46,291 nucleotides of DNA, from positions 1 through 46,291 of the IMG/VR virus record IMGVR_UViG_3300045972_000110; one strand, written 5' to 3'. Below are positions 7,669 to 28,990 of this stretch, in pieces. Position numbers and translations under genes: made by a program. Source of the DNA: a virus. Each line of letters begins with the position of its first letter. The stretch's first letter is position 1. The notes below the pieces were generated by a model. The model was not told where the DNA came from. It worked only from the letters and a program-made list of their open reading frames with translations, and ran no database searches.

Positions 7669-7970
7669 GCACGCTTCTTCAGAGGCACGACCTTCTTCGC
7701 AGCTTCTTCAGCGGCGAGCAGGCGGGCCTCGACCAGGCGCGTGTAGCCAATGATGTCGGTCCACGAGTCGATGTAGTTCGGGTCGCCGTTGAGGATGCGA
7801 CCGACCTTGTGGGCCACCATCTCCAGGGCTTCCTTCTGGTCGAAGGTCAGGTTGGGCCACTGGGGGCTGGTCTGCATGACGCCCTTGATGCCCTGCGTGA
7901 TGTGCGCGTGGCCGGTGAACGCGCCATAGCGCTCACCGCGCTCGGCCAGGGTGGTGTCGATGGTGCTCAC
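7665..7970 (-). CDS. DUF6378-like phage protein
   Basis: A 101-residue helical protein with the series LAERGERYGAFTGHA, QKEALEMVAHKVGRILNGDP and DSWTDIIGYTRLV, matching the phage family I know as DUF6378. The conserved E...H-K...GD...D-W-x-D pattern resembles all-alpha NTP pyrophosphohydrolases, so nucleotide housecleaning is a reasonable but unproven idea. GTG start overlapping the upstream stop by 4 bp. Confidence 0.75.
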   Translation of the reverse strand: MSTIDTTLAERGERYGAFTGHAHITQGIKGVMQTSPQWPNLTFDQKEALEMVAHKVGRILNGDPNYIDSWTDIIGYTRLVEARLLAAEEAAKKVVPLKKRA

Positions 7971-12116: not shown

Positions 12117-12228
12117 AGTTTCATCTCCTTGTGGGTGCCCGCGCTCGCATAAAGCAGCGTTCCCTTTAACGTATCACTCGCTGTTGATAACCGCGCCGGG
12201 GCTAAGCCGACGCACGCGGGCGTAATCG

Positions 12229-14316
12229 TTACTTGCTGTAGTTCGGTGCCCAACCACCCTCGCAGTTCAGCGGGATGTCGGGGCACCAGTCCAGCGGTGT
12301 GCTCATCTCTTTGGTCATGAACGCAAAGCATGACTTGGCCTGAACTGTCTTGGGCAGCGCAACAGCCTCATCGTGCGTGGTCATCACGACGCGGTGCTTC
12401 TTGCGGATGTTGAGCATCTGCTTGCCCACGATGATCCGTGCCAGCGCTTGAACCAGGTTCTCGCACAGCAGGCCACCGTAAATCTTCTTGCGCATGTCGC
12501 CGGACTTGTAGGTCCACTCGTCCCATCCCTTGTCACCTACCTGCTTGCGCAGCTCGGGGTACTTGAGCGACATCCCGTTGGGGAGCCAGATGATCTCCTT
12601 CTCCCAGACGATGGGACCGTGGCGACCTGACCGGCCAGTAGCCATGTCTTCAATGATGCGAGCGCAGATGTCCCAGCCTTGCTTGATCTTGTGGTTCGCG
12701 CGGCGATACGTGTTCACGATCTCCGTGCAGCGATCCAGTTCGAAGAAGATCGGCGGGCCACCGAGCGCGCCTTTGGCCAGCGTCATCTGGAACTTGGCAG
12801 CACCCATCTGGTAGCCCAGGCCCAGAACGCAGACCTTGCCAACGAAGCGTTCGGTCTTGTCCTCCTTGGTGATCGGACGGCCATAAATCAGCGTAGCGAA
12901 GCGGCAGTAGGCGTCGGTGCCCACACCCCCGTCGGCGGCTGCAAAAGCTGCCATGAGATCGTGCTGACCCCACAGCCAGCCATTGACGCGGGCTTCAATC
13001 TGGCCGGAGTCCACCACGCACATCTGGTAGCCCTTGGGGGCCAGGATGGACAGGCGCAGCTCACCACCACGGGTGAGGTTCTGCATGTTCATCTTGTTGT
13101 TGCCGCCCCACCGGCCCGTGTGGGCGCGGTAGTAGGCATAGCCCACCGGCAGGCTCATGCCATTGGCACCAGCCTTCAGGAAGCGTTCTGCGCGCGTGAT
13201 GTTCGTCGTGCTTTTAACAGCCAGGCGAGCTTCCACCAGTGCGCGGATACGATCCTGCTTCGCAGAGATGAGAGGGATGTCTTTCTTCTTGTTCGGGTCA
13301 AGAGCACCGCGCCAGAGGTCAATGTTGTCAGGCAGTGAGGTGAACGCGATGTCGTCCTTGGCAAAGGCGTAGGACCATTTGTCTGTTTCATCTTCGCGCT
13401 CCTCTTTGCTGCGCTTCATCCATGCGGGGCTGATCTTCACTGGAGGCTCAATGCCCTCGGTGCGCAACAGGTCAGCGAACTTCTCGTTCGCGCCCAGGAT
13501 GCGCTTGATGATCAGCATGTCCAGCTCTTCACCGGTCAGCGCACGCTCGGCCTTGGTCTTGAGCACGGTCTTGTCGGCGTAGAACGGCTTGGGGTCGATG
13601 ACCGCGTAGAACTTGGCCTTGCGCTCCAGCAGCTCGCGTTCGTACTCCTTCTCGACGCGCGGGATGTCGACCTTCAGGACCGGGTCGCAGAACATGCGAA
13701 TCGTCATGTCCACCAGGTCCAGTTCGTCGGCGGGGAACTTGGCGTGCATCTCCTTGAAGATGGCATGCGTCAGGTCCACGTCCTGGGCGCAATACTTGGC
13801 CAGCGGGTCGATGATCGACTTGGGCCATTCGAGCACACCCTTGGTGGTCTCCAGCGCGCCTTCGATCTTGCTGCCCTTGCCGTAATACTGGGCCACCTCG
13901 TCCAGGCTGGCGCCGATCTCGTTGCTGTGCAGGCCACGGGCCATGCTCAGCGTGTCGTAATACTGGAACGGAATCACCTTGTACACGTGGCTCAGGATGA
14001 AGCCGTCGAACGCTGTGTTGTGGCACAGCAGCGAGTGGGTGGACCAGTTGATGCTCTGGAGAGCGGCCATGATGCGCAGGCGCCCGGTGTACACCTTGGT
14101 CGGCTTGTTGCCGATCTTGATGCCCACCATCTGCGCCTTGAAGCGCTTGTCTCGCACGTACTCGCTGGTGCTCAGCTTGGACAGCGTGTAGTCGCTATCC
14201 CAATACGTTTCAAAGTCCACCGTGACCAGGCGGTTCCAGTCCACCAGGCCCGGAGTGATCTCAGGCCGGTTGATGATCACCTGGGCCTTCTTGCGCAGCA
14301 TGTCTCCCCAACCCAT
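12229..14316 (-). CDS. family-A DNA polymerase with 3'-5' exonuclease
   Basis: Replicates phage DNA. The 695-residue protein has an N-terminal proofreading domain with D34-F-E36, H99-N-x-x-F-D104 and Y175-x-x-x-D179, then the polymerase palm and fingers. Motif A is VVDSGQIEAR (D436, E441), where the usual D-Y-S reads D-S-G. Motif B is K494...GYQMG and motif C is THDEAV. Its T7-like size without a 5' nuclease domain is usual for podoviruses. It starts on a TAATG overlap with the upstream gene, with AAGGAG at good spacing. The 112 bp after its stop hold no gene. Confidence 0.94.
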   Translation of the reverse strand: MGWGDMLRKKAQVIINRPEITPGLVDWNRLVTVDFETYWDSDYTLSKLSTSEYVRDKRFKAQMVGIKIGNKPTKVYTGRLRIMAALQSINWSTHSLLCHNTAFDGFILSHVYKVIPFQYYDTLSMARGLHSNEIGASLDEVAQYYGKGSKIEGALETTKGVLEWPKSIIDPLAKYCAQDVDLTHAIFKEMHAKFPADELDLVDMTIRMFCDPVLKVDIPRVEKEYERELLERKAKFYAVIDPKPFYADKTVLKTKAERALTGEELDMLIIKRILGANEKFADLLRTEGIEPPVKISPAWMKRSKEEREDETDKWSYAFAKDDIAFTSLPDNIDLWRGALDPNKKKDIPLISAKQDRIRALVEARLAVKSTTNITRAERFLKAGANGMSLPVGYAYYRAHTGRWGGNNKMNMQNLTRGGELRLSILAPKGYQMCVVDSGQIEARVNGWLWGQHDLMAAFAAADGGVGTDAYCRFATLIYGRPITKEDKTERFVGKVCVLGLGYQMGAAKFQMTLAKGALGGPPIFFELDRCTEIVNTYRRANHKIKQGWDICARIIEDMATGRSGRHGPIVWEKEIIWLPNGMSLKYPELRKQVGDKGWDEWTYKSGDMRKKIYGGLLCENLVQALARIIVGKQMLNIRKKHRVVMTTHDEAVALPKTVQAKSCFAFMTKEMSTPLDWCPDIPLNCEGGWAPNYSK

Positions 14317-18102: not shown

Positions 18103-19212
18103 TTACACCTTTATCCGCACGTGTTCGCCCCAAGGCGGCACCACGTCAGTCGTCATGCACCACAGCACCGGATAGTCGGGCTGCTCCTCTGGGAACGTGC
18201 CGTAGCCGTCGGTCAGATAGATGAACGCGGCGGGCTTGATGTCACGCTTCTCCAGCCAGCGGAAGGGCGGGCGGAAGTCGGTGCCACCGGTCTCAATGGA
18301 CTTGAACGTGGGCGGCTCGCCACCCTGCTCGTACTCGTCCACCTTGGAGATGTGCGAGTGGCAGTAGATGTTGATCAGCTTCTCGGGGTGGGTCGCCTCG
18401 TAAGCGGCCAGCACCTCGCCGCCGAACGCAGCCAGGGTCGGGCCGTCCACAGAACCAGATTCGTCGATGCCGGTGGCCAGGATGCCCATGCTCTCACTGT
18501 GCAGCGAGGGCAGGCAGTAGCCGTAGGGCACGTACTTCTTGTTCAGGCGTGACCAGGAGTAGTCGTTGCGGCTGATCTCGGTGATGAAGCGCTGGAGCAC
18601 CTGTTGCCAGGGCACTTGCGGCTCTTCGATCTCTTCCATGAAGCGTTTCATGCCTGCGGGCATCTTGCCCAGAGCCTTGGCACCGGCCACGGCCTGCTGC
18701 ACGTTGATCTTCCATTCCAGGTCGATCTCGGCAGCTTCACCGGCAGAGTGCGCGCCGTCGAGCACTTCGTCGAAGGAGGGCGGGGGCTGCTTCTTGTTCC
18801 GCTGCTGCTCTTGCATCAGGATGTCGTAGATGTGCTCGGTGGACATGCCCACGAAGCGATCTTCGAAGAGCCAGCCTTCGCCCAGCTTGAAGCCAGCTTC
18901 CCTGATCACAGGGTTGATCATGTAGTCGCCAGCCGCGTTCCAGGTAGCAGGGTCACGGCCACCACGACGGATGAAGTGCTCGGAGACGCAGTGCATGATC
19001 TCGTGGATGAATGCCGACTGCGTAAGCGCGGGCGTGAGCTTCTGGAGTACGAAGTCCGGGTTGTAGAAGATGTGCTTGCCGTCCACAGCCAAGGTGGGGA
19101 TGTCCGTCTTCTCGACCAGCTTCAGGTGCATGGCCAAGCGGCCAAAGAAGTAGTGATCCAGCAGCAGGCCGATGCGAGCTGCGATCAGTTGGTCATGCGC
19201 TTTCTTGTTCAT
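18103..19212 (-). CDS. VWA-like putative metallopeptidase (DUF2201-type)
   Basis: A 369-residue protein combining two parts. The N-terminal half has a zinc-protease site FIHEIMH (H70-E-x-x-H74) and DPATWNAAGDYMIN, typical of the DUF2201_N putative metallopeptidases. The C-terminal half is a von Willebrand factor A-like domain with MIDAS residues D250-E-S-G-S254, T311 in GGTDF and D335 in YLTDG. Such proteins act with MoxR-type AAA+ ATPases, and one is encoded 2.5 kb upstream at 21671-22684. The start overlaps the upstream gene by 20 bp with GGGAG before it. Confidence 0.88.
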   Translation of the reverse strand: MNKKAHDQLIAARIGLLLDHYFFGRLAMHLKLVEKTDIPTLAVDGKHIFYNPDFVLQKLTPALTQSAFIHEIMHCVSEHFIRRGGRDPATWNAAGDYMINPVIREAGFKLGEGWLFEDRFVGMSTEHIYDILMQEQQRNKKQPPPSFDEVLDGAHSAGEAAEIDLEWKINVQQAVAGAKALGKMPAGMKRFMEEIEEPQVPWQQVLQRFITEISRNDYSWSRLNKKYVPYGYCLPSLHSESMGILATGIDESGSVDGPTLAAFGGEVLAAYEATHPEKLINIYCHSHISKVDEYEQGGEPPTFKSIETGGTDFRPPFRWLEKRDIKPAAFIYLTDGYGTFPEEQPDYPVLWCMTTDVVPPWGEHVRIKV

Positions 19213-19807
19213 TCAGTTCTCCCTCAAGTAAATCGTTGGCTATCAAGTTTTCGAGAACGGTCTCGTCGCTGGTGAGGTGGTCGTTCTCCTCCTCCAGCTT
19301 GGTGTACAGGTCGCAGCACAGGTCCTTGACCTTCTTCTCTGTGGCTTCGACGAACTTCACCCATTCGTTCTCGGCATCACGTATCTCGGACTCGCGGGCG
19401 TGCCAGCGCAGTGGTTCGTCTCTGCGGTCGAACTCGTTGCGCACATCGAAGTATTCGCTGAACTCCAGCGTCTCCGCGTGGCAGTAGTTGCCGCGTGAAT
19501 ACCAGCGCAGGGACCGGTCGGTGTACGCAGCCTTGAGCAGCACCGGGAAGTCTTTCGCCGCCCTGGTGAAGTCGGCCACGTACCCTTCGAAGCAGGCACC
19601 ATCTCCTTGGCTGCAAAAGCCGCTGAAGAATATCGACGGGCGACCATGGTTCACGTTGACGCCGTAGCCAGCTTCGATCAGGTCGTATTGGAACTGCTCG
19701 TAGACGTTGTCCCACCAGTGGTCTTCCATTTCAACAGGCCGGTGCTTGTCGAGGATCGCCTGCTGCTCGGTCTTGCTCAGCGCTTCGAAGCGTTCTTTAA
19801 GTTCCAC
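19193..19807 (-). CDS. conserved phage protein with SGF-SQGDGACFEG motif
   Basis: A 204-residue acidic protein. Helix LSKTEQQAILDKHR is followed by HWWDNVYEQF and the signature IFFSGFCSQGDGACFEGYV found in a very common phage family. That family is sometimes annotated as an antitoxin of a stability system, but without good evidence. GTG start at 19807, overlapping the end of the upstream gene, whose RRLRGT codons supply the AGGAGG ribosome site. Confidence 0.75.
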   Translation of the reverse strand: MELKERFEALSKTEQQAILDKHRPVEMEDHWWDNVYEQFQYDLIEAGYGVNVNHGRPSIFFSGFCSQGDGACFEGYVADFTRAAKDFPVLLKAAYTDRSLRWYSRGNYCHAETLEFSEYFDVRNEFDRRDEPLRWHARESEIRDAENEWVKFVEATEKKVKDLCCDLYTKLEEENDHLTSDETVLENLIANDLLEGELNEQESA

Positions 19808-20033
19808 GGAGCCTCCTCAGTGCGATGGGTTCAACCACCCAGTCTTCAGCTTCCTGCGCAGTGAGGAAGAATGCGGTCTGGTCGTACGCGGTGTGCGTTG
19901 TGCCACGGATTGTGCGAACTGCGTCATACCCGTTACGGTTTAACGCCTCCACGTACTGACCACAATGCGTACCTCGGTACTGGAGATACTTGCCTTTGCC
20001 GTCGGCAGAGAAGCTCCAAATCAGGTCGGACAT
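19797..20033 (-). CDS. hypothetical protein with C-terminal LRG tag (78 aa)
   Basis: A 78-residue protein, beta-rich (KYLQYRGTHC, TAYDQTAFFLTAQEAEDW), ending IALRRLRGT. The last codons contain both the AGGAGG site and the GTG start of the next gene. This is the first-cluster member nearest the VWA gene. Function unknown; see the finding on the shared C-terminal tag. Confidence 0.65.
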   Translation of the reverse strand: MSDLIWSFSADGKGKYLQYRGTHCGQYVEALNRNGYDAVRTIRGTTHTAYDQTAFFLTAQEAEDWVVEPIALRRLRGT

Positions 20034-20854
20034 AGCGCCAGGATCGCTTCAGCCTCGGCCACCACGCGGCCCCGCGCCGTCGCAGAGTTGCGCAGGAGCT
20101 GCGGGTTCACGAGGAGGCCGGAGATGATGCGCTCACACACGGTGTGCATGGTGGGGTCGTCACTGACATTGAGGCCCGGCAGAAGTCGGCTGAGGTCGTC
20201 GAGGTTGTCGATGAGGGAGTCATGCACGACTACTTTCTTCGCAGTGAGTCGAGCGCAGACGCGACCCACGGCTTCACGAATTCGTACCCAAGCGTCTTTG
20301 ATGGCGGCGGCTTGCCGCTTAGCCACTCGGTCAGCAATTTCTTGTCGTATGCGCCCGCGCTCGACATCAGATACGTCCACTCGAAAATCGGCCCCGTCAG
20401 GCACGGGCATGATGTCGATCTCCACGTCGAACTTGCCGTACAGTTCAGAGGGGTCGGGATAGTCGTCGGGGTCGTACATCGTGCCCAGGCGCTGACGGGC
20501 CTCCTGGACCAGGCGCGAGCTATAGAGCTGCGCAAACTTGGAGACCATGCTGGCGTACTCCTGCTTCATCTTGCGCATCTCTGCGCTGTACTCAGCGAAG
20601 AGTTTGGAGGGCAGCATGCGCGCGCCGTTGTCCATCCACGGCAAGGTCATCTTGTAGTGGTAGGTGCGAATCTGCCCTGCATAGCTGGTGAGCGGGTCCA
20701 GGTGGACCTTGTCGATCAGCAGCTTGTTGTAACGCCCCGCGTCGCGGGCGTTGTGTTGGGCCTCGACCTCGGCCGAGACCTTCTTGTCTTGTTTGCGTGC
20801 TGTCCAGCAGCTCACGGAGAGCGTGACCAGCATCGCTTTGTCTTGCAGACTCAT
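20021..20854 (-). CDS. DUF3150-like protein of the MoxR/VWA cassette
   Basis: A 277-residue mostly helical protein. Motifs include LVTLSVSCWTARKQDKKVS near the start and PWMDNGARMLP then YSAEMRKMKQEYASMVSKF. These match my memory of DUF3150, a family found next to MoxR-like ATPases and VWA or CobT-like genes in phages and bacteria. It probably works with those two proteins, whose genes flank it here at 18103 and 21671. Molecular activity unknown. The ATG overlaps the upstream stop, and GAGAGGG is its ribosome site. Confidence 0.7.
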   Translation of the reverse strand: MSLQDKAMLVTLSVSCWTARKQDKKVSAEVEAQHNARDAGRYNKLLIDKVHLDPLTSYAGQIRTYHYKMTLPWMDNGARMLPSKLFAEYSAEMRKMKQEYASMVSKFAQLYSSRLVQEARQRLGTMYDPDDYPDPSELYGKFDVEIDIMPVPDGADFRVDVSDVERGRIRQEIADRVAKRQAAAIKDAWVRIREAVGRVCARLTAKKVVVHDSLIDNLDDLSRLLPGLNVSDDPTMHTVCERIISGLLVNPQLLRNSATARGRVVAEAEAILALCPT

Positions 20855-21057
20855 AGCTTCCCTCTCAGTCTTTCGATTGCAAATAATTCGTGGAGGTGAT
20901 CAAGCACCTTGCGAGATGCCAGGTCATCCTTCTTCATGAAGTACCTGTGGTTCAAGTTGTAGAGCTGCAACGCAGTTCCAACGCTCACGTTCCTGGCCTT
21001 GGCGATGATTTCCCAGTGCTTCACACCGAGTTCGTTCGGCTCCAAGAACTCAGCCAT
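20851..21057 (-). CDS. hypothetical helical protein with C-terminal LRG tag (68 aa)
   Basis: A 68-residue protein starting FLEPNELGVKHWEIIAKAR and ending HELFAIERLRGKL. The P-x-x-L start and the tagged end place it with the next three upstream genes as divergent paralogues. Its AGA-GGG codons form the ribosome site for the DUF3150-like gene. Function unknown. Confidence 0.65.
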   Translation of the reverse strand: MAEFLEPNELGVKHWEIIAKARNVSVGTALQLYNLNHRYFMKKDDLASRKVLDHLHELFAIERLRGKL

Positions 21058-21274
21058 GCTGACCTCGCAGTCGGGCCAACATCATTGCTTCGTCGCACTG
21101 CTCCATCCATGTGTTGCCCATCTGGTGCCTGTACCAATACGAATACCAGTCGCGCACTCTCTCAACACCCTTACCGAGGTTCGATCCCATATACAGGATT
21201 TCGAACTTCGTGTTGAGTGCCAACAAGTGCTGCTCAGTCAGCTCACTCGGATGGAGGTACTTTGTTGTGCTCAC
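21050..21274 (-). CDS. hypothetical helical protein with C-terminal LRG tag (74 aa)
   Basis: The GTG start at 21274 is chosen because GCGAGG lies at good spacing and a KYLHPSEL start then matches the neighbouring paralogue's KYLHPNNL. The aromatic segment RDWYSYWYRHQMGNTW is followed by the tag EAMMLARLRGQHG. A much longer upstream extension in the same frame is low-complexity and overlaps two other genes, so it is rejected. Confidence 0.65.
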   Translation of the reverse strand: MSTTKYLHPSELTEQHLLALNTKFEILYMGSNLGKGVERVRDWYSYWYRHQMGNTWMEQCDEAMMLARLRGQHG

Positions 21275-21488
21275 CGCGCAACCTCGCTTTGGAAAATGCA
21301 TCGTTGAACTCGTCGAGCCGCTGCACCACCCGCTTGCGGGCATGCAGTGGGTCGTTGTGCCAGGTCTCGTAGAACCAGCGATACCAGGACGCTGCCTGGT
21401 CTCTCTCCGCGCCGTGGTGTCCGAGGAGATCGGACACGATCTCTTCCTCCCACGGCTGGAGGTTATTTGGGTGTAGGTACTTGTCCAC
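21243..21488 (-). CDS. hypothetical helical protein with C-terminal LRG tag (81 aa)
   Basis: A paralogue of the 21050 gene: KYLHPNNLQPWEEEIV, then SWYRWFYETWHND, then tag NDAFSKARLRGEHN followed by seven further residues. The GTG start at 21488 lies within the CGT-GGA codons of the upstream gene's own tag. Only a weak ribosome site is seen, so it is probably translated by coupling. Confidence 0.6.
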   Translation of the reverse strand: MDKYLHPNNLQPWEEEIVSDLLGHHGAERDQAASWYRWFYETWHNDPLHARKRVVQRLDEFNDAFSKARLRGEHNKVPPSE

Positions 21489-21696
21489 GGATTCTTGCCA
21501 ATGCAAATGCGTTCACGGACCACTCCATGCGAGCGACGCTGATCGTCGAAGGGTTCACGTGGCGCACAGCGGCGCCATAGTGCAGCCGGTAGCTTTCGCT
21601 TCCAGCGTTGTACCTCTTGCGGTAGATCAGCGACTGCCAAGCCTGAAGGTCTTCAGGCTTGACCCACTCATCACACGAGGAGATTTCGGTTCTCAC
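21463..21696 (-). CDS. hypothetical helical protein with C-terminal LRG tag (77 aa)
   Basis: Most upstream of the four helical paralogues: EWVKPEDLQAWQSLI and a variable middle, ending NAFALARIRGQVPTPK. It starts at a GTG 26 bp inside the MoxR gene's 3' end. Leu is replaced by Ile in the tag. Function unknown. Confidence 0.6.
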   Translation of the reverse strand: MRTEISSCDEWVKPEDLQAWQSLIYRKRYNAGSESYRLHYGAAVRHVNPSTISVARMEWSVNAFALARIRGQVPTPK

Positions 21697-22684
21697 GAAT
21701 CCAGCTCGTAAACGCTTTGGTTTCGCTGATGGCCTCGTCGCGGCGATCAGCCTGGGTGACGTACACCACCTCGAAGTCCTTGGACATGCGGCCCACGTAC
21801 TTCAGAAAGGCGGGGAACGTCTCGGGCGTGGTGCGCGCTTCCAGACCGGCCAGCACGGCGTAGCGTGTGGACGGGGAATCGGGCACCATGATGCCTTCGG
21901 GATCGTCGGCGATCTTGTCCAGGTCGGGCATGTTCTTGCGGTCGCGCGCGAAGCCGATCAACTTGGTCGCCACGCCTTCGCCGACGGTGCCCTGGAGGAT
22001 GGGCAGCATCACCTCGGAGCGCAGCTTGCTGTTGATCACCTTATCAGCCACAGCCCAGGTACGGGGCGTATGGAACGCGCGGGCGCCAGCTTCGATCTTT
22101 TCCACAATGAGGTCACCCGGCTGCATGCGGATGTAGCCACGGGTGGTCTCGCTGAGGCCATGGTTGATGGCCCAGTTGTTCCAGTCTTCGTGGTCCACCG
22201 TGAAGTCCAGGTGGATGAAGCGGTTGCACAGGGCGGCAGGCATAGCGTGTACAACGCTGCGGTCAGTGCTGCGGTTGCCAGCAGCCAGAACAGTCCATCC
22301 CGGAGGGAGTTCATAGTCGCCGATCTTGCGGTCCAGGATGAGCTGGTAGGCACCGGCCTGGACCGAGTTAGGCGCGGCGTTGATTTCGTCCAGGAACAGG
22401 ATGCCGTTGCCCTTGGTGGGCAGGCTGGCCATGGGGAAGAAGGCCATGGTCTTGGTCGCGGCGTCGGGCATGGGGAAGCCCTTGAGGTCAGTCGGATCGC
22501 AGTTCGACAGACGGATGTCCACGAACTGAAAGTGATCCTTCTTGGCCTTGATCTTGGAGTTGAGCAGCGCGACGGTTGCGCGCACCACGTCGGATTTGCC
22601 GACGCCGGGAGGACCCCAGATCATGGTCGGCTGCTGGATGCCCACGACGAATTCGAGGGCTTCGATGAGGAGAGAAGGCTTCAT
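21671..22684 (-). CDS. MoxR-like AAA+ ATPase
   Basis: A 337-residue AAA+ ATPase. Walker A is GPPGVGKS (24-31), Walker B GILFLDEINAAP, sensor 1 VLAAGNRSTDRS and the Arg-finger region ALCNRF. An FVDIRLSNCDPTDLKGFP segment is typical of MoxR proteins. MoxR ATPases act as chaperones or activators together with VWA proteins, and the VWA-metallopeptidase and DUF3150-like genes follow on the same strand. Start at 22684 chosen for AGGTGG; a GTG three codons upstream is possible. Confidence 0.9.
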   Translation of the reverse strand: MKPSLLIEALEFVVGIQQPTMIWGPPGVGKSDVVRATVALLNSKIKAKKDHFQFVDIRLSNCDPTDLKGFPMPDAATKTMAFFPMASLPTKGNGILFLDEINAAPNSVQAGAYQLILDRKIGDYELPPGWTVLAAGNRSTDRSVVHAMPAALCNRFIHLDFTVDHEDWNNWAINHGLSETTRGYIRMQPGDLIVEKIEAGARAFHTPRTWAVADKVINSKLRSEVMLPILQGTVGEGVATKLIGFARDRKNMPDLDKIADDPEGIMVPDSPSTRYAVLAGLEARTTPETFPAFLKYVGRMSKDFEVVYVTQADRRDEAISETKAFTSWIRENRNLLV

Positions 22685-22708
22685 GTTGTCCACCTAAGAG
22701 TTGAAGGG

Positions 22709-22927
22709 TTACGGGTACTTGCGCGGCCAGAGCATCAGGTTGACGCGCTCTGCGCCGAAGATCGTGAGATAGGACTCGGGGTACATCACGTTGCCGGGGG
22801 CAACGAACATTCCCTTGACCAGGTAGTGCGGGACATAAGTGATGCCCAGCATCGTGTAGCAGGCGGTCGATTCGACCTCGTGGGGAGTGCTGACGTTAGC
22901 CACGGTAGCTGCGATGGTCAGGTCCAT
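22709..22927 (-). CDS. hypothetical protein (72 aa)
   Basis: A 72-residue soluble protein with central YTMLGITYVPHYLVKGMFV, coupled to the upstream gene by a 32-bp overlap and 24 bp before the MoxR start. Only a weak ribosome site. No family recognised. Confidence 0.55.
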   Translation of the reverse strand: MDLTIAATVANVSTPHEVESTACYTMLGITYVPHYLVKGMFVAPGNVMYPESYLTIFGAERVNLMLWPRKYP

Positions 22928-23057
22928 AGGTCACACAGTGCGTGGTGACTCCAAGCTCATCGCGCTTCGCCTTGGCAGCGGGCTTGGAAGAAAAGAACAG
23001 GTTGGGGATGACTCGACCGGTGGTCAGGTCACGGATGGCGAACAGGCGAAGATTCAT
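22896..23057 (-). CDS. small hypothetical protein (53 aa)
   Basis: A 53-residue basic protein (MNLRLFAIRDLTTGRVIPN, FFSSKPAAKAKRDELG) ending DHRSYRG. The pattern of strand, 'F-S-S-K-x-x-A-K-x-x-R-D' helix and strand is common in short phage proteins that describe a predicted beta-alpha-beta unit. An 18-bp dispersed motif lies 26 bp upstream, so it probably heads the MoxR transcript. Confidence 0.6.
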   Translation of the reverse strand: MNLRLFAIRDLTTGRVIPNLFFSSKPAAKAKRDELGVTTHCVTYGPDHRSYRG

Positions 23058-23083
23058 GGTATCCACTTCTAAGAAGAACGGGG

Positions 23084-23101
23084 TTAGATCGAAAACAGAG
23101 T
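23084..23101 (-). promoter_or_regulatory. 18-bp dispersed motif, copy 6
   Basis: The leftward strand reads ACTCTGTTTTCGATCTAA, 26 bp before the 23057 start. It differs from the primase-helicase copy mainly at the CGATCT/AGATCG positions. Confidence 0.55.
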
Positions 23102-23106
23102 ATAGA

Positions 23107-23268
23107 TTAAGAAATGAAGATGATCTCCTCTTTATTGAACACTTGGTACAGATATCGGTGCTTGTACGGCATGGCAACTTCGACCCGATGGCTGTCGAGC
23201 CACCGCACAATGCGCCCGGATGTCCAGGCTACCGGAACGAGGCGCATTGGCACAAGGACGTTCAGCAC
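23107..23268 (-). CDS. small hypothetical protein (53 aa)
   Basis: A 53-residue protein starting at a GTG that overlaps the upstream stop (GTGCTGA). It is basic and beta-like: VRWLDSHRVEVAMPYKHRYL, ending in an acidic-hydrophobic EEIIFIS. Last gene of the metallophosphoesterase transcript. No family recognised. Confidence 0.5.
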   Translation of the reverse strand: MLNVLVPMRLVPVAWTSGRIVRWLDSHRVEVAMPYKHRYLYQVFNKEEIIFIS

Positions 23269-23405
23269 AGGGTTCCCTTCGATTTGATGTGTTTGTTGCC
23301 GTCATTGCGGAAATACACACGCTCCTGATTCGGCTGGTACTTCGTGTAGCGCCGGGGCACCGTGGGCTGCGGAGGCAGCTTCTTAACTTTTGGTTTGTCG
23401 GTCAC
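23262..23405 (-). CDS. small basic protein (47 aa)
   Basis: A 47-residue Lys/Pro-rich protein (KPKVKKLPPQPTVPRRYTKY) starting by GTGA overlap with the metallophosphoesterase stop. Probably disordered and nucleic-acid-binding by composition. Function unknown. Confidence 0.5.
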   Translation of the reverse strand: MTDKPKVKKLPPQPTVPRRYTKYQPNQERVYFRNDGNKHIKSKGTLC

Positions 23406-23923
23406 TTGTTCATCTCCTGCGCCCGGAGGTTGTTCACCACCATGCGCTGCATCACGTCGTCGATGGACATGGGGGCCATGACCTTCGAGGCATCCACACC
23501 CACATCCAGGCGGTTGTGCTTCACACCGGCTGTGCCGTGTGAGTGGCCGTGCAGGTGGTACTGGTACTCGCGGCGCCACGACTCCAGAGGGTAGTGGCAG
23601 AGCACGAAGCGGCGCGCGGGGTCCACCTTCAGGTACGCCAGCTCGGGCAGCACCTCGTCGAAGAGGTGCATGACCTTCTTGGCGCGCTCCAGGTCGTGGT
23701 TGCCAGGCACCAGCTTGATCTTGCCGTTGAGGCGCGGAATCAGGTGGTAGTCGCCGAAGGCCACGTCGCCGAGGTGGTAGACGGTGTCCTTGGGCTTCAC
23801 GGTCTCGTTCCACATTTGCACCATGCACTCGTTCATCCCCTCCACGGTTTCGAACGGACGCTTGCAGTATTGGATGATGTTGTTGTGCCCGAAGTGTGTG
23901 TCGGATACGAAGAAGATGGTCAT
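23402..23923 (-). CDS. calcineurin-like metallophosphoesterase
   Basis: A 173-residue phosphoesterase. Metal-site motifs: SDTHFGHNN (D-x-H), LGDVAFGD (GD), PGNHDLER (GNHD), CHYPLESW (H) and HGHSHG (GH-x-H). Small phage enzymes of this type hydrolyse phosphodiesters or nucleotides; some counter host signalling nucleotides, but the substrate cannot be read from sequence. Coupled by ATGA to the 42-residue gene upstream. Confidence 0.9.
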   Translation of the reverse strand: MTIFFVSDTHFGHNNIIQYCKRPFETVEGMNECMVQMWNETVKPKDTVYHLGDVAFGDYHLIPRLNGKIKLVPGNHDLERAKKVMHLFDEVLPELAYLKVDPARRFVLCHYPLESWRREYQYHLHGHSHGTAGVKHNRLDVGVDASKVMAPMSIDDVMQRMVVNNLRAQEMNK

Positions 23924-24048
23924 TCTTCAACCTCGAAGTAAATTATTTCTGTCCATTCGGAGCGGGAGTCGTAACGCTCCAACTCCTTCTTGAAATTCCA
24001 TTCATTGAAGGTGTCGTCCCACCGAATGAATCCGCGCTTGGCTTTCAT
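23920..24048 (-). CDS. small hypothetical protein (42 aa)
   Basis: A 42-residue protein (KRGFIRWDDTFNEWNFKKEL) between two 4-bp overlaps. It is acidic at the C-terminus. No family recognised; overlaps on both sides are the support. Confidence 0.5.
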   Translation of the reverse strand: MKAKRGFIRWDDTFNEWNFKKELERYDSRSEWTEIIYFEVEE

Positions 24049-24341
24049 TTGGCGACTCCAATCACGGCCAACGCGATGGCCTTTTGCGGGGTGCATTCAC
24101 TCACGTAGATTCCTTTGTAGCCGGCTTCCCACCCGTAGTCCCAGCGGATGGGGAACGCGTTGTACCGCTCCGCAACCGGTCCAGCGATGGTCCAGTCGCG
24201 GTAGTCGAAGACTTTCCAGTCGTTGTGCCACGTGTAGTCATTGCTGACGTTGACGTAGAAGACGCCACTCTCGACGGCGCATTGACGCTCAGTCCACCCA
24301 ATCGCCAGTGCGAGGGCCTTGGAGATTTCGAGGTCGGTCAC
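24045..24341 (-). CDS. conserved hypothetical phage protein (98 aa)
   Basis: A 98-residue protein: helix ISKALALAIGW, then aromatic-rich WHNDWKVFDYRDW, FPIRWDYGWEAGYKG, and a final helix TPQKAIALAVIGVAK. This resembles a widespread family of about 100-residue phage proteins that start with A-L-A-x-A-I-G-W, function unknown. GTG start overlapping the upstream stop. Confidence 0.65.
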   Translation of the reverse strand: MTDLEISKALALAIGWTERQCAVESGVFYVNVSNDYTWHNDWKVFDYRDWTIAGPVAERYNAFPIRWDYGWEAGYKGIYVSECTPQKAIALAVIGVAK

Positions 24342-24634
24342 GCCACCACCTCATTAGGCACAGCGCTGAGCATGCCCTTCAGCGTGGGGCCAAGCGTGTT
24401 CGCGCCGTAGCCCCCGTGTTTGTAGTAGAGGGTCTTCTTCCCGTTCCACTCGGAATAGACCTGCATCACCACCGTGCCATCAGCATAGGCGTGGCCGGTG
24501 CGACGGGCTTTGTCAGAGAGCACCACGGTGTCGCCACTGAGGTTCAACCACTCGGCTGGACGGTCAGTCGTGATGAACTGCGGCGCGTTGTGCGCTGTCG
24601 GGCGCGGACGGTATTCGATGATGAAGGTTGTCAT
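24338..24634 (-). CDS. hypothetical protein (98 aa)
   Basis: The start at 24634 is preceded by GGGAGG at slightly long spacing. A beta-rich 98-residue protein (TTFIIEYRPRP, GTVVMQVYSEWNGKKTLYY). It shares its first 71 bp with the out-of-frame end of the zinc-finger-like gene upstream. Function unknown. Confidence 0.6.
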   Translation of the reverse strand: MTTFIIEYRPRPTAHNAPQFITTDRPAEWLNLSGDTVVLSDKARRTGHAYADGTVVMQVYSEWNGKKTLYYKHGGYGANTLGPTLKGMLSAVPNEVVA

Positions 24635-24923
24635 GATTCCATGCCTCCCAGAGGGTTCTTGCTGCTTTGCTGGGTTTGGGTTTGTACACACCCTTCTTAG
24701 GGGGTGTGCCACTTGGGTGCGCTTTGCCAAAGACTTGTCGGAAAAGGTACAGCCACACGCCGCACTCTTTGCAGTGCGTGGCGTAGACCTTCTTGCGCGA
24801 GTCCCGCGTGAAGTCGCTGCTCCTCTTCTGTTCGCCACAACACGCACACCCGCGTAACTTGGGTGGGCACCCGACCCGCAGGTTTGTCTGGCGGTTCGGG
24901 TTGAACGGGGGCGGTCCGGCCAT
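24564..24923 (-). CDS. zinc-ribbon-like hypothetical protein (119 aa)
   Basis: The start at 24923 overlaps the upstream stop (TAATG). Residues about 25-57 form a zinc-ribbon pattern, CACC...HCKEC, with SSDFTRDSRKK between, as in many phage zinc-finger proteins. A basic tail follows. The last 24 residues overlap the next gene in another frame, so the true end could be altered by an error; I keep the ORF as read. Confidence 0.6.
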   Translation of the reverse strand: MAGPPPFNPNRQTNLRVGCPPKLRGCACCGEQKRSSDFTRDSRKKVYATHCKECGVWLYLFRQVFGKAHPSGTPPKKGVYKPKPSKAARTLWEAWNHDNLHHRIPSAPDSAQRAAVHHD

Positions 24924-25735
24924 TACTTCACGTTGATGAAGGGCAGGGCACCACCAGCCTGCGTGGTGGGCAGCTTGCCGTCCCACTTGGCGATGGCCTG
25001 GAGCTGCACATATTCAGCGCCGCCCGAGGCTGCAACAGCCGAGGCACGCAGCTTGGTGGCGTCAGCGTCACCGGCAGCTTCGACACGTTTGCGGTCGGCT
25101 TCGAGCTTGGCCAGCTCCAGCTCCTTGGTCTTGGCGTTGATCTGGAACTGGCGTGTAGCCGATTCCTTCACTGCGGCTTCCAGCGTCGGGTCGGTCTGCA
25201 TGTTGCGCACGTTGACGCTGCGCACGAAGAACCAGCCCTTGCCTGCCGAGGCGTCCAGGTCAGCTTGCAGGGTCTTCACCACGCCGTCAGCGATGCTGGC
25301 GCGTTCGGTGTGGACTGTGGAGCTGTTGCGCTTGGCGATGTCGCTGTAGATCGCTTCACGCGCCTGGCGCGTCACGTAGTTGATGCCCACGCGTGCGCCG
25401 TCTTCGTCTTTTTCCTTGGTGAGGTCACCAGGCCAGCGGGTCATGATCTCGGGCGCGTGGGCCGGGTCGATCTGGACGTAAATGTCCACGTCCAGGTCAG
25501 CCAGGTTGATCTTGTCGGCCGTCTGGGGCTTCAGGTCGTCGAGCGACAGGCGCAGTTCCTTGGCGCTGACCTCGGTCACGCGCTTGAATAGGGTGAAGTA
25601 CATGCCAGGGGGCATGGTCTCCTTCTTGACCTGGCCCAGCGTGGACTCGACGCCCACGTTGCCGGTGTCAATCTGGGAGCAGCCGGTCACCAAAGCGGCC
25701 AAGGAGATGAAGGCGACGGAGAAGAGTTTTTTCAT
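24923..25735 (-). CDS. SPFH/prohibitin-like lipoprotein
   Basis: A 270-residue protein with signal peptide MKKLFSVAFISLAALVTGC and lipobox Cys19, so it is predicted to be lipid-anchored outside the cytoplasm. The body is an SPFH/band-7 domain (GNVGVESTLGQVKKETMPPG, DVDIYVQIDP, VTRQAREAI, GWFFVRSVNVRN) followed by the Ala/Glu-rich coiled coil that drives oligomerisation in this family. Phage copies are known, but their job is unclear; membrane protection or superinfection control are options. Confidence 0.85.
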   Translation of the reverse strand: MKKLFSVAFISLAALVTGCSQIDTGNVGVESTLGQVKKETMPPGMYFTLFKRVTEVSAKELRLSLDDLKPQTADKINLADLDVDIYVQIDPAHAPEIMTRWPGDLTKEKDEDGARVGINYVTRQAREAIYSDIAKRNSSTVHTERASIADGVVKTLQADLDASAGKGWFFVRSVNVRNMQTDPTLEAAVKESATRQFQINAKTKELELAKLEADRKRVEAAGDADATKLRASAVAASGGAEYVQLQAIAKWDGKLPTTQAGGALPFINVK

Positions 25736-25923
25736 ACGATGTTGATAGAGCTGAGACGAACGGCGGTGAACAGGGCACCGAAGATTGCAGTGCTGAGGAT
25801 CGTGATCCACGGCAGATGCTTGCGAGCGAGTCGCTTCACCGTGCGCCGGAACAGCGCCGAGGAAGTGACCCACATGAAGTAGGCGAGCAGCCCAAGGACG
25901 AGCAGGAGGAGGGCGTGTTTCAT
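25732..25923 (-). CDS. small membrane protein (63 aa)
   Basis: Two membrane helices, about residues 3-25 and 40-57, joined by a basic loop RRTVKRLARKH. Coupled by ATGA overlap to the SPFH lipoprotein gene, so the two may act together at the envelope. Function unknown. Confidence 0.65.
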   Translation of the reverse strand: MKHALLLLVLGLLAYFMWVTSSALFRRTVKRLARKHLPWITILSTAIFGALFTAVRLSSINIV

Positions 25924-26093
25924 TCGATCACCACCGTTTCAGGGTGTTTGATGAGCTTGGCACGCATTACAGCGGCTTCACGGTTGCTCCAGAAGTCAAC
26001 CTTGACCCAGATAGGTAGCCACCAACGCTTCACATAGATACCGTAAAACTGGTCACCGTAAGCGCTGACGTACGGTTGAACTTTGACTTTCAC
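25920..26093 (-). CDS. small hypothetical protein (57 aa)
   Basis: A 57-residue protein starting at a GTG overlapping the upstream stop. It shows FYGIYVKRWWLPIWVKVDFW, then helix NREAAVMRAKLIKHP. This strand-Trp-helix form is common in tiny phage proteins of unknown role. Confidence 0.55.
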   Translation of the reverse strand: MKVKVQPYVSAYGDQFYGIYVKRWWLPIWVKVDFWSNREAAVMRAKLIKHPETVVIE

Positions 26094-26611
26094 GGGCGGC
26101 TGTCCACGAAGGCCACGAGCTTGTCGATGTCGAGCTGGAGTTCGTGGATCACGTTCTTCAGCTTCTGGGGCTTGGCTACGATCTTATTCAGACCTTCGAT
26201 CTTGCGTTCCAGGTCGGCAATCTTGGTGAAGATTTGCGAATCGCTCATGCTGGCGGCGTCTTCGCCCTGGATGAAGGTCTTGGTTTCGATATTCTTGGTC
26301 ATGGGTTCTTCCTTGCGGAGTTGAGGTTGGGGGGAATTGATGAAGCCTTCTTGCTGCGCCGTTTCAGTGGGCAGCACGATGCGGTAGTAGGTCGTGGTCG
26401 ACGTGTCGAACTCGACCAGGCCGAGCTGGCGCAACTTCACGACCACGCCATCGGAGGGACGTGACAGCGTCTGAGCCATCTGCTTGAGCGTGGCGCCGGC
26501 CATGTAGAGGCTGCGCAGTTGTTCGTACTCGTGGTCAGTCCAGGTCTTGCCGTGGCGTGCGCGGATTTCATAGTCGTTCCGCGCAAAGCCTGTATCAAAC
26601 TTGTGTCTCAT
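26090..26611 (-). CDS. SANT/HTH-like domain plus coiled-coil protein, with internal start
   Basis: A 173-residue protein. Residues about 20-65 form a helix-turn-helix of SANT type (KTWTDHEYEQLRSLYMAG, TLKQMAQTLSRPSDGVVV). Residues 104-173 form a coiled-coil unit (MTKNIETKTFIQGEDAASMS, then SQIFTKIADLERKIEGLNKI). AAGGAAG lies 5 bp before the internal in-frame ATG at residue 104, so the C-terminal part is probably also made alone. Stand-alone relatives of that unit exist in phages. Regulatory role possible. Confidence 0.65.
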   Translation of the reverse strand: MRHKFDTGFARNDYEIRARHGKTWTDHEYEQLRSLYMAGATLKQMAQTLSRPSDGVVVKLRQLGLVEFDTSTTTYYRIVLPTETAQQEGFINSPQPQLRKEEPMTKNIETKTFIQGEDAASMSDSQIFTKIADLERKIEGLNKIVAKPQKLKNVIHELQLDIDKLVAFVDSRP

Positions 26612-27030
26612 GCCAGCTTCTCCAGGTACGCCTTGACCTTCGATTCGTTCTCGTTGCGGTCGTCGTCGTAGCCACCGGTGCTGAAGTAGAACTTGTCGGA
26701 CTTCAGGTATTCGAGCTGGGTTTCTTCGGGGTCAAACTGACCTTCGAAGCCGTAGCAGGAGCAGTGACCGCCGCTGAACTCCCACAGCGTGTTGTCGCTG
26801 TTCTTGCGCATAAGGAACCAGGAGGATGAGTCGCACCCCCAGTTACCCACGGACTCATAGGCGATCAAGATGGTGAAGTCGTCCAGCTTCTTAGCCAACG
26901 TGGCCACGTCGTCGCTCGGACGACCGTAGTCGAAACCAGACTTGTCACCGGCGTATTCGCCAGCGATGTGTTTTTTGACTTCGTAGGGCGTCATGCCTTT
27001 GAGGTCAGCGAGGAATAGAGGGTTGTTCAT
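26608..27030 (-). CDS. conserved hypothetical phage protein (140 aa)
   Basis: Start at 27030 by ATGA overlap. Contains FTILIAYESVGNWGCDSSSW and the motif GGHCSCYGFEGQFDPEET, which recurs in a phage family of unknown function. Acidic C-terminus ending in a short helix. It may bind a metal through the His/Cys cluster. Confidence 0.7.
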   Translation of the reverse strand: MNNPLFLADLKGMTPYEVKKHIAGEYAGDKSGFDYGRPSDDVATLAKKLDDFTILIAYESVGNWGCDSSSWFLMRKNSDNTLWEFSGGHCSCYGFEGQFDPEETQLEYLKSDKFYFSTGGYDDDRNENESKVKAYLEKLA

Positions 27031-27221
27031 TTGCTTTCTTCTTTCGCAACGTGAGCCACCGGCATGTACAGCACGGTGAGATTGGTGACGGCCCATTCGA
27101 GGGCCTGGATTTCAGACTTGTCCCACGTGTTCACAAAGTCTGGGTTAGCTGCGCGCTTGCGCAAGAAATCAATGCGTCGCTTGAGCATGCGCAAATGCTT
27201 CGCTGGTCCTGATCCACTCAT
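27027..27221 (-). CDS. hypothetical helical protein (64 aa)
   Basis: A basic 64-residue helical protein (AKHLRMLKRRIDFLRKRAAN, EIQALEWAVTNL). An 18-bp dispersed motif ends 2 bp before its ATG and contains the only purine-rich stretch there. First gene after the tag cluster. Function unknown. Confidence 0.6.
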   Translation of the reverse strand: MSGSGPAKHLRMLKRRIDFLRKRAANPDFVNTWDKSEIQALEWAVTNLTVLYMPVAHVAKEESK

Positions 27222-27223
27222 CT

Positions 27224-27241
27224 TTCGATCTTTCTTAGAGG
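27224..27241 (-). promoter_or_regulatory. 18-bp dispersed motif, copy 7
   Basis: The leftward strand reads CCTCTAAGAAAGATCGAA, ending 2 bp before the 27221 ATG. Unlike copies 4 and 5, its TAA is not a stop codon of the preceding gene, so the conservation is not due to coding. Confidence 0.55.
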
Positions 27242-27248
27242 TTAGATT

Positions 27249-27473
27249 CTAGCTGTAGGTTCCACGCAATCGGGCGAGTGCGGCGTTGTCCTCGGTTAAA
27301 TAAATTCCTTCGCGTCCTCCGTTGCCCTCGTGCCACCGAGAGCACTTCGGTTCGTGGTTAGGAAATTTGCACGACACTTGCTCCCCGGTAGTAGTGTTGC
27401 GGAGGTCGTAGTAGCACGGCTTGCAGCCGGTGCCATACTGTACGTGGATCATCACAATCTTCTCTTCAGCCAT
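27249..27473 (-). CDS. Cys4 small protein with C-terminal ALARLRG tag, paralogue 1
   Basis: A 74-residue protein: MAEEKIVMIHV strand, CKPC, two further Cys (VSCKF and PKCSR), then IYLTEDNAALARLRGTYS. The four Cys suggest a zinc site. It is the last gene of the cluster: nothing starts inside or right after its tag, and LRG is written TTG-CGT-GGA with no ribosome site. The tag is therefore kept at protein level. Confidence 0.75.
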   Translation of the reverse strand: MAEEKIVMIHVQYGTGCKPCYYDLRNTTTGEQVSCKFPNHEPKCSRWHEGNGGREGIYLTEDNAALARLRGTYS

Positions 27474-27669
27474 ACGTGCCCCTCAGTCTTGCGAGTGCGG
27501 CCTTGTCCTCGGTGAGGTAGATGTATTCCTTCGCGCCGAAGTGATCACGTTTGGAGCACTTGCGGTTCGGCACATCGGGGTGGCTGCACAGTGCTGCGCA
27601 TGCGTAGTGACAGTTCTCACATCCGTGGTCAATAGGCACCCTAATCTTGACGATCTTCTCTTCGCTCAC
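27466..27669 (-). CDS. Cys4 small protein with C-terminal ALARLRG tag, paralogue 2
   Basis: A 67-residue close paralogue of the next gene: MSEEKIVKIRV, GCENC, C at ALCSH and RKCSK (with one extra Cys), YIYLTEDKAALARLRGTYG. GTG start; AGAGGAGG in the upstream gene's tag codons is its ribosome site. Function unknown. Confidence 0.75.
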   Translation of the reverse strand: MSEEKIVKIRVPIDHGCENCHYACAALCSHPDVPNRKCSKRDHFGAKEYIYLTEDKAALARLRGTYG

Positions 27670-27902
27670 AGCTTGCCTCCTCTCAGTCGCGCCAGGGCCA
27701 GGCGGTCGGCGCTGATGAACACGACCTCGGTGCGGTCGGGGCGCTCTTCCTCCCCGCAGTTCAGAACGTCACACAGGCCCATGCGGGTCCTGTGTCCTTC
27801 ACAGACCCCGCAGCCCTTGTCTTGTGTACCTGGCGGTATGTCGAAGACAGACACAGCGCACATCTCCACACCGAGGTGGGTGATGGTCTCAAGTGGGGTC
27901 AT
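27666..27902 (-). CDS. Cys4 small protein with C-terminal ALARLRG tag, paralogue 3
   Basis: A 78-residue protein with GCGVC, then MGLCDVLNC, and VVFISADRLALARLRGGKL at the end. It starts inside the YYDPT tail codons of the upstream paralogue. Its own CTG-AGA-GGA tag codons serve as ribosome site for paralogue 2. Confidence 0.75.
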   Translation of the reverse strand: MTPLETITHLGVEMCAVSVFDIPPGTQDKGCGVCEGHRTRMGLCDVLNCGEEERPDRTEVVFISADRLALARLRGGKL

Positions 27903-28128
27903 AGTAGCCTCGCAGCCTGGCCAAGAGGGCCTTGTCAGGGGGGACGAAGATTACGCCCTCGGGGCCTGTCTTGCGTCCGCTCTCGCTGCGTGCAGTGGAG
28001 GTGCAGTACGCAAGGCCTCTGCAAGATATTTTCCAGAACACACACGGCTCACAGCCCTGCTGTATGGTGTCCGTGATCGCAGTGGCGGTTATGTCGTCGA
28101 TGGTCACGGTCTCGTAGATGCGTATCAC
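27889..28128 (-). CDS. Cys4 small protein with C-terminal ALARLRG tag, paralogue 4
   Basis: A 79-residue protein: MIRIYETVTIDDITATAI, GCEPC, SCRGLAYC, VIFVPPDKALLARLRGYYDPT. GTG start overlapping the upstream stop. Function unknown. Confidence 0.75.
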   Translation of the reverse strand: MIRIYETVTIDDITATAITDTIQQGCEPCVFWKISCRGLAYCTSTARSESGRKTGPEGVIFVPPDKALLARLRGYYDPT

Positions 28129-28337
28129 AGCTCACCTCGCAGTCGCGCTTTGAGCGCATCGTCGGGCAGCATGAAGAACACGGTGGTCTCGTCGCGGCGT
28201 TCAGATGAAAGGCACGGGAGAGCGCCGCAGTCGTGCAGTTCCCTGAACACGCAATGCGTGCAGCGACCTCCGTTCACATGCACCACAGGCGTCAGCTCCT
28301 GGTCGCGATGCGTCTCGTCGGGCAGCAGCTTACTCAC
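28125..28337 (-). CDS. Cys4 small protein with C-terminal ALARLRG tag, paralogue 5
   Basis: A 70-residue protein: RCTHC, HDCGALPC, TVFFMLPDDALKARLRGEL. The LPDD-AL-x-ARLRG end is the closest match to the scaffold protein's C-terminus (LPDDVLARMRGDEFV). GTG start within the upstream gene's last codons. Confidence 0.75.
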   Translation of the reverse strand: MSKLLPDETHRDQELTPVVHVNGGRCTHCVFRELHDCGALPCLSSERRDETTVFFMLPDDALKARLRGEL

Positions 28338-28560
28338 GCCACTCTCCGCGCAGCCTCACCAGTGCGGCCTGCTCACTCGTGAGGAAGATCACGTCCTGGC
28401 TGTCTTTGCGTTCGGATTTCATGCAAGGGACTTCCAGGCAGTCATGGTCTTTGTGCAGCGCGCAGTGAGCGCACCAATCTTCTACGTCGGCATGTCTGAT
28501 GCCGTTCATGGGGTGGAGCACCAAACCTTCATGGGTCTCAGGTTTCAGAACTTGGTTCAT
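28330..28560 (-). CDS. Cys4 small protein with C-terminal ALARLRG tag, paralogue 6
   Basis: A 76-residue protein: WCAHC, HDCLEVPC, VIFLTSEQAALVRLRGEWRE. It resembles paralogue 5 across its length. Its start overlaps the end of the frameshifted paralogue 7. Function unknown. Confidence 0.75.
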   Translation of the reverse strand: MNQVLKPETHEGLVLHPMNGIRHADVEDWCAHCALHKDHDCLEVPCMKSERKDSQDVIFLTSEQAALVRLRGEWRE

Positions 28561-28781
28561 TTATTCTTCCTCTCAATCTTGCTTTGAGTGCGTCATCTGT
28601 GTACATCCAGATGATGGTTTTCCCGTCGGGAGGTGTATCGTTGCAACGGCCTATCACGGTGGTGCATTTGCTCACGTCATACCCAATGCACGCGTGGCAG
28701 GGTAGGGCTGGGTCCCCCTACGTTATGCACCGCCACGATCTCCTTGCCTTCATAGACCTTGGTCTCCAGCAGTTGGATCAT
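28538..28781 (-). pseudogene. frameshifted Cys4/ALARLRG paralogue 7
   Basis: The ATG at 28781 overlaps the upstream stop and encodes MIQLLETKVYEGKEIVAVHN, nearly identical to paralogue 8. The frame then runs into an early stop. Skipping one base in the G5 run (C5 at 28714-28718) restores a full family protein: PCHACIGYDV, SKC, GRC, IIWMYTDDALKARLRG and a short tail ending at 28538. This is either a real one-base insertion, a homopolymer sequencing error, or, less likely, a programmed shift. Confidence 0.7.
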
Positions 28782-28990
28782 CGGATTTCTCCTCTAAGCC
28801 GTGCCTTAAGGGCGTCCTCGGTGTACATCCAGATGACGGCACTGCTACCACCACGTGCGGGAGGACTGCATGGGGGCAGGTCGCCGCATTCGATGCTGAA
28901 CCCTATGCACCCCTTGCAACTGCCGAAGGTGTGTACCGCCACGATCTCCTTGCCTTCATAGACCTGGGTCTCCAGCAAGGTGATGGTCAT
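28778..28990 (-). CDS. Cys4 small protein with C-terminal ALARLRG tag, paralogue 8
   Basis: A 70-residue protein: MTITLLETQVYEGKEIVAVH, SCKGC, IECGDLPPC, VIWMYTEDALKARLRGEIR. It overlaps the primase-helicase stop by 4 bp, so the whole cluster is translated from the primase-helicase transcript and is probably made early. Confidence 0.75.
   Translation of the reverse strand: MTITLLETQVYEGKEIVAVHTFGSCKGCIGFSIECGDLPPCSPPARGGSSAVIWMYTEDALKARLRGEIR

Follow-up and report, generated by a model that had tools for sequence, protein, structure and literature searches.

A C-terminal tag on small phage proteins of unrelated families, constrained at the protein level and associated with a phage MoxR-DUF3150-VWA operon

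Results

The tagged genes and their neighbours

Here we report that 13 minus-strand ORFs in a stretch of viral DNA (IMG/VR virus record IMGVR_UViG_3300045972_000110, whose 46,291 bases are together called the window) have the C-terminal motif A-[LF]-x-x-R-[LI]-R-G or a variant close to it. Five of these lie in cluster 1 (19797-21696) and eight in cluster 2 (27249-28990), and 1-9 residues stand between the conserved tag glycine and the stop. An initial annotation, made from the letters of the sequence, had described 13 small proteins with a common C-terminal tag, and all were located on the minus strand where it had placed them. Absent from that annotation was the association of cluster 1 with a larger operon: its genes are interleaved with those for a MoxR AAA+ ATPase, a DUF3150-like protein and a metallopeptidase-VWA protein. 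The features of the locus are as follows.

18103..19212, minus strand: putative metallopeptidase (HEIMH) fused to a VWA-like domain (Pfam DUF2201_N and DUF2201)
19193..19807, minus strand: untagged 204-aa ORF between a tagged gene and the VWA gene (PHROG 5162)
19797..20033, minus strand: tagged ORF, family F4, end ...EDWVVEPIALRRLRGT (ORF listing; G001 homologue)
20021..20854, minus strand: DUF3150-like protein, untagged (weak Pfam DUF3150 match, E=0.017)
20851..21057, minus strand: tagged ORF, family F1 ([YFW]-x-x-P-x-x-L start), end ...LFAIERLRGKL
21050..21274, minus strand: tagged ORF, family F1, end ...AMMLARLRGQHG
21243..21485, minus strand: tagged ORF, family F1, end ...AFSKARLRGEHNKVPPSE
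21463..21696, minus strand: tagged ORF, family F1, end ...NAFALARIRGQVPTPK (AlphaFold2 pLDDT 89)
21671..22693, minus strand: MoxR-type AAA+ ATPase (Pfam AAA families; PHROG 1297 ATPase; N4 gp24-like matches)
27249..27473, minus strand: tagged ORF, CxxC family, end ...NAALARLRGTYS, without an overlapping downstream start
27466..27669, minus strand: tagged ORF, CxxC family, end ...KAALARLRGTYG
27666..27902, minus strand: tagged ORF, CxxC family, end ...RLALARLRGGKL
27889..28128, minus strand: tagged ORF, CxxC family, end ...KALLARLRGYYDPT
28125..28337, minus strand: tagged ORF, CxxC family, end ...DDALKARLRGEL
28330..28560, minus strand: tagged ORF, CxxC family, end ...EQAALVRLRGEWRE
28538..28675, minus strand: tagged 3' part of a CxxC-family copy, end ...DDALKARLRGRINEPSSET
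about 28676..28780, minus strand: 5' part of the CxxC-family copy whose 3' part is 28538-28675
28778..28990, minus strand: tagged ORF, CxxC family, end ...EDALKARLRGEIR

The two parts at 28538-28675 and about 28676-28780 are one CxxC copy split by a one-base frameshift (a mutation or a sequencing error), and profile searches match it in two pieces, at 28713-28781 and 28562-28699. In cluster 1, 21050-21274 starts inside the tag codons of the gene before it, and the homologue of 19797-20033 in the relative G001 (IMG/VR 3300037010_000292) has the identical ending IALRRLRGT.

The DUF3150-like gene is untagged, as had been noted initially. Its match to Pfam PF11348 falls below the cut-off, which the homologue in locus L042 passes; AlphaFold2 models the protein at pLDDT 93, no fold match to it was found in the PDB, and a PDB sequence search for DUF3150 likewise gave no match. 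The HExxH motif of the metallopeptidase-VWA protein is kept in 73/80 homologues. A DUF3150-based search gathered 80 viral loci and 14 genome loci, most of them with all three genes.

Body families and a structure model

The proteins that bear the tag had been said to have different bodies. They do fall into at least three unrelated families, but all eight cluster 2 proteins belong to a single CxxC-bearing family of tandem copies, whose best-kept part is the last residues. Four cluster 1 proteins, which have the [YFW]-x-x-P-x-x-L start in common and whose last helix closes with the tag, look like one helical family (F1) whose pairwise similarity is weak once the tag is stripped; 19797-20033 forms a third family, apart from both. 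With the tag removed, phmmer and profile comparison found no link among the three body families. Searches of Pfam, PHROGs and PADLOC gave no convincing match to the tagged proteins, Rfam and megablast against a phage collection gave no match, and a profile search of viral contigs with a CxxC subfamily (the broader CxxC alignment being too variable for this purpose) recovered no genomes beyond those already in the set.

In the AlphaFold2 model of the F1 protein 21463-21696, a helical domain (pLDDT 89), the final helix spans residues 51-69 and the tag makes up its end; a fold search with this protein against viral structures and the PDB gave no significant match. Since the well-ordered helix of the model includes the tag, part of the tag's conservation may be structural, which is a point against the docking function discussed below. 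A ubiquitin-like end (R-L-R-G-G) was considered and rejected: the F1 model is helical and not a beta-grasp, the CxxC bodies have no Pfam match, and among the 13 tagged ORFs a second glycine follows the tag only in 27666-27902.

Taken further, the fact that the last F1 helix is well ordered up to its end, where the tag lies, could mean that the tag simply closes the fold of proteins descended from a single ancestor of all carriers, with no separate partner, and the tandem duplication evident in cluster 2 would suit such a history. We regard this as unlikely, though deserving of serious weight: no similarity was detected between the families outside the tag, the CxxC proteins reach it from a different context, its most conserved residues are the polar R and G, and protein heads are far less alike than tails.

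Selection on the protein and the effect of gene overlap

The tag is a genuine motif at the level of the protein, carried by small proteins of unrelated families. Using homologues from G001, G004, G005 and L004, we obtained pN/pS values of 0.27 for the tag core, 0.10 for R-G and 0.61 for the bodies, which are rough numbers with paralogues and near-saturated synonymous sites included. The underlying pS is the same throughout (0.72, 0.68 and 0.69, in that order), and pN is 0.19, 0.07 and 0.42. Synonymous change is equally free in tag and body and non-synonymous change is 2- to 6-fold lower in the tag, which supports the initial proposal that selection acts on the protein and not on ribosome sites. 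The same annotation had suggested this very comparison and had named a lack of amino-acid constraint as contrary evidence; the tag amino acids are constrained. All six codons are used for the first tag arginine, and five for the second.

In most tagged genes the end overlaps the start of the following gene, whose ribosome site or start codon might be what keeps the tag codons as they are. Overlapping ORFs do show a mild excess of R-G (122/1206 vs 96/1631), and overlap may account in part for its fixation. Overlap nevertheless fails to explain the tag: synonymous change is unrestricted in it, its codons vary freely, and a survey of 1206 overlapping ORF pairs (window and all loci) found R-[LIM]-R-G near the end in the tagged genes and in just one further ORF. 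The gene at 27249-27473, with the next ORF starting at 27221, has no overlapping start and spells its end TTG-CGT-GGA, exactly as first described. A nucleotide artefact is thus largely refuted, and we consider it very improbable.

Loss of the tag in homologues without a downstream overlap had also been proposed as contrary evidence; few cases in the clade bear on this, and 27249-27473 keeps its tag. In other lineages, analogous tails are present both with and without overlap. The short overlaps at nearly every tagged gene in the clade could also point to a nascent-chain signal, in which R-L-R-G would pause the ribosome near the stop and aid restart on the overlapping next gene. This is extremely improbable in our judgement, given the tag on the non-overlapping 27249-27473, the intergenic gaps that accompany analogous tails in other phages, and the other coupled genes of the same operon, which are untagged.

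R-[LIM]-R-G is found in about 6/2808 other ORF tails of related loci. The 13 tags per ~60 genes far exceed chance, with a binomial probability of about 1e-22, a figure for which the gene number is assumed and in which tandem copies are not independent; the claim of a tag does not depend on it, because at least three unrelated body families bear the motif.

Tails in related and distant loci

In the relatives G001, G004 and G005 the tag is kept on small ORFs of differing number and kind, with one further tagged ORF in G004 (11714-11950) outside both clusters. In phages further removed from the window, small ORFs lying between MoxR, DUF3150 and VWA genes have C-terminal helices in common, with lineage-specific spelling such as VIAERMK, LSPEDIAxxxALSL and LTREDMARAASARM. 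The last of these comes from L049; other tails are LSPEDIAICAQASL in L067, AIILRMRRS and CIVARLKGEHL in L020, endings like NAVIAERMK on five ORFs in L012, YMLKRMQG, LIFERMQG and AAVIAVRMGA in L095 (a Janthinobacterium MAG), and LSPEDIAICAQASLRR, LKPEHLAQITYARMLN and LTREDMARAASARMTG in alphaproteobacterial elements. Planktothrix phage Pra-JY27 has a different tail, common to three small ORFs between DUF3150 and VWA.

We compared tails in the 66 loci with all three genes, taking the small ORFs between the genes as gap ORFs; ORF calling was crude, so that spurious ORFs stand in both gap and control sets. Among gap-ORF tail pairs, 7.3% of 341 exceeded z>5, against 1.8% for heads and 0.2% for tails of other ORFs in the same loci. 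In held-out loci, [RK]-[LIM] lies within ten residues of the stop in 50/132 gap ORFs vs 177/962 others. Held-out gap tails also outscore controls against the tag profile of the window clade (p=1.4e-4). With distant loci only the value is p=0.006; the window tag resembles the alphaproteobacterial tails modestly, a further point against docking. As the loci are mutually related, both p-values serve as guides. Within alphaproteobacterial tails a pattern L[ST]PEx[IL]A had been noticed before it was counted (15/132 gap ORFs vs 4/962 others), so that this is not an independent test.

Discussion

Based on these observations, we suggest that the tag may be a C-terminal docking helix of small early phage proteins with different bodies, and that it would attach them to a single partner encoded by the phage, for which the AAA+ complex of MoxR ATPase, DUF3150-like protein and metallopeptidase-VWA protein is the likeliest candidate. 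The carriers would then be either clients, to be remodelled or cut by the complex, or interchangeable adaptors, with bodies that recruit other proteins of host or phage to the complex. We hold this reading tentatively, at a little short of an even chance, because the tag is conserved at the protein level, the bodies are unrelated, the genes are associated and the tails recur in distant operons. From this genomic evidence we infer early expression, physical binding to the complex, which protein binds, and the client or adaptor role. The initial annotation had left the choice among sorting, docking and degradation; the genomic association would favour docking on, or processing by, a MoxR-VWA machine.

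Two aspects of gene distribution sit less easily with docking. One is that cluster 2 is next to the primase, about 4.5 kb away from the three genes. The other is that small-ORF arrays are missing from many MoxR-DUF3150-VWA loci, Burkholderiales plasmids among them, so the complex does not depend on the small ORFs.

Degradation, in the form of early proteins made short-lived by a tag that a host AAA+ protease (Lon or ClpXP) reads, was also among the initial proposals, and is consistent with the C-terminal position, the small early-type proteins and the combination of hydrophobic and basic residues. It is quite unlikely in view of the 1-9 variable residues after the motif, ssrA-type signals needing a free C-terminus, and of tails that vary by phage lineage along with the phage's own three-gene operon and mark only a subset of small ORFs. 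An ssrA-type degron as such (a hydrophobic, LAA-like free C-terminus) was rejected on account of the variable residues that follow R-L-R-G.

Protein-level conservation demands some function, and this could be docking to a different partner, for example host RNA polymerase, the membrane or another phage early protein. However, it is specifically in ORFs lying between MoxR, DUF3150 and VWA genes that shared tails turn up again in distant phages, and we consider such a partner distinctly unlikely. Returning to docking on the phage complex, a bolder and rather unlikely version would be that the phage has its own AAA+ unfoldase-peptidase (MoxR, DUF3150 and metallopeptidase-VWA) served by interchangeable small adaptors with a constant docking tail and many target-binding bodies. 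Gain and loss of adaptor genes would re-aim such a machine at different host proteins, in the way that F-box proteins redirect a ubiquitin ligase.

We found no description of the tag in the open-access literature, where searches on DUF3150 and on shared tails of small phage proteins gave no relevant result. The association of the tag with a phage AAA+ machine is new, and docking is the function we propose for it. Many phages and bacteria possess MoxR-VWA machines, whose choice of target is understood in few cases; a tail common to many unrelated proteins of the same operon would offer one peptide for binding tests and a list of candidate clients or adaptors. If true, the proposal would give a function to some of the many small uncharacterised early genes of phages.

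Short C-terminal peptides bring proteins to AAA+ rings in other systems, as with the SspB tail on ClpX and the ssrA tag; the phage tag differs from these in sequence and stops short of the C-terminus. Jumbo phages encode a MoxR with a metallopeptidase-vWA partner, for which a role in virion assembly with proteolysis has been proposed (PMC7824862). The MoxR ATPase and metallopeptidase-VWA architecture is the same as in the window, and the portion of PMC7824862 considered here differs in naming no tagged small proteins. N4-like phages give strong MoxR matches to the window ATPase, and in their S6 and LUZ7 loci we saw neither shared tails nor a gene annotated as DUF3150 next to MoxR.

The closest documented parallel is the MoxR-VWA pair CbbQ/CbbO, for which a C-terminal HK/R motif of the target, rubisco, is essential, and an 11-residue rubisco C-terminal peptide stimulates the ATPase (PMC4660213). 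There, one target carries two residues at the exact terminus, whereas in the phage 13 small proteins carry an eight-residue helix end with putative binding, alongside an additional DUF3150-like protein and a metallopeptidase-type VWA protein. The 1-9 residues after the phage glycine, unlike the terminal CbbQO motif, count against docking by this analogy. The two systems are nevertheless alike in having MoxR AAA+ and VWA genes in one operon, as in the window, and a C-terminal motif that is common to system-associated proteins and rare in others, as judged for the phages from gap-ORF tails against controls. They are alike, too, in pairing a MoxR-VWA machine with a motif that contains basic residues and, for the CbbQ/CbbO target, is found only where the pair is present (PMC4660213).

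Tag-like and shared C-terminal ends

The window encodes a probable scaffold protein, so assigned because its ORF sits between the portal and major head protein genes:

40134-41174, plus strand, probable scaffold ORF, with the genes for the portal (phrog_156) and the major head protein (phrog_334) on either side

Its product ends in FKNLPDDVLARMRGDEFV, similar to the tag LPDDALKARLRGEL, and this tag-like ending is conserved in the close relatives G001 and G004, in G007 (LMAKLRGD) and in the Janthinobacterium genome G011 (EEDLARMRGDVL). The resemblance may be coincidental, or the protein may be an additional client of the MoxR-DUF3150-VWA machine. A further tagged ORF in G004 is distant from either cluster of tagged small ORFs:

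L113 11714-11950, minus strand, extra tagged ORF ending in QDYLAVRRLRGEV, record G004 (IMG/VR 3300022743_000004)

At locus L059 (11424-12378), three successive ORFs end in IVDRIRARGKA, IATAIRARGTK and SSAAIRTRGKS, perhaps another common tail outside the three-gene operon.

The MoxR-DUF3150-VWA operon and a further domain protein of the window

Window 18103-19212, minus strand, VWA protein with an intact HEIMH metallopeptidase motif
Window 24923-25873, minus strand, SPFH/Band 7 domain protein in a phage genome (Pfam E=3e-13)

Since the VWA protein has kept its metallopeptidase motif intact, as 73 of 80 homologues also have, an unfoldase-peptidase may be the product of this operon. On the Janthinobacterium contig L095, GNGYGNGSG repeats make up two ORFs adjoining the operon (7625-7843 and 12218-12502).

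The gene tables of two conjugative plasmids, L127 (Burkholderia) and L128 (Simplicispira), held no recognised array of tagged small ORFs; the MoxR, DUF3150 and VWA genes are grouped there, with a possible MoxR gene 3.6 kb upstream in L128.
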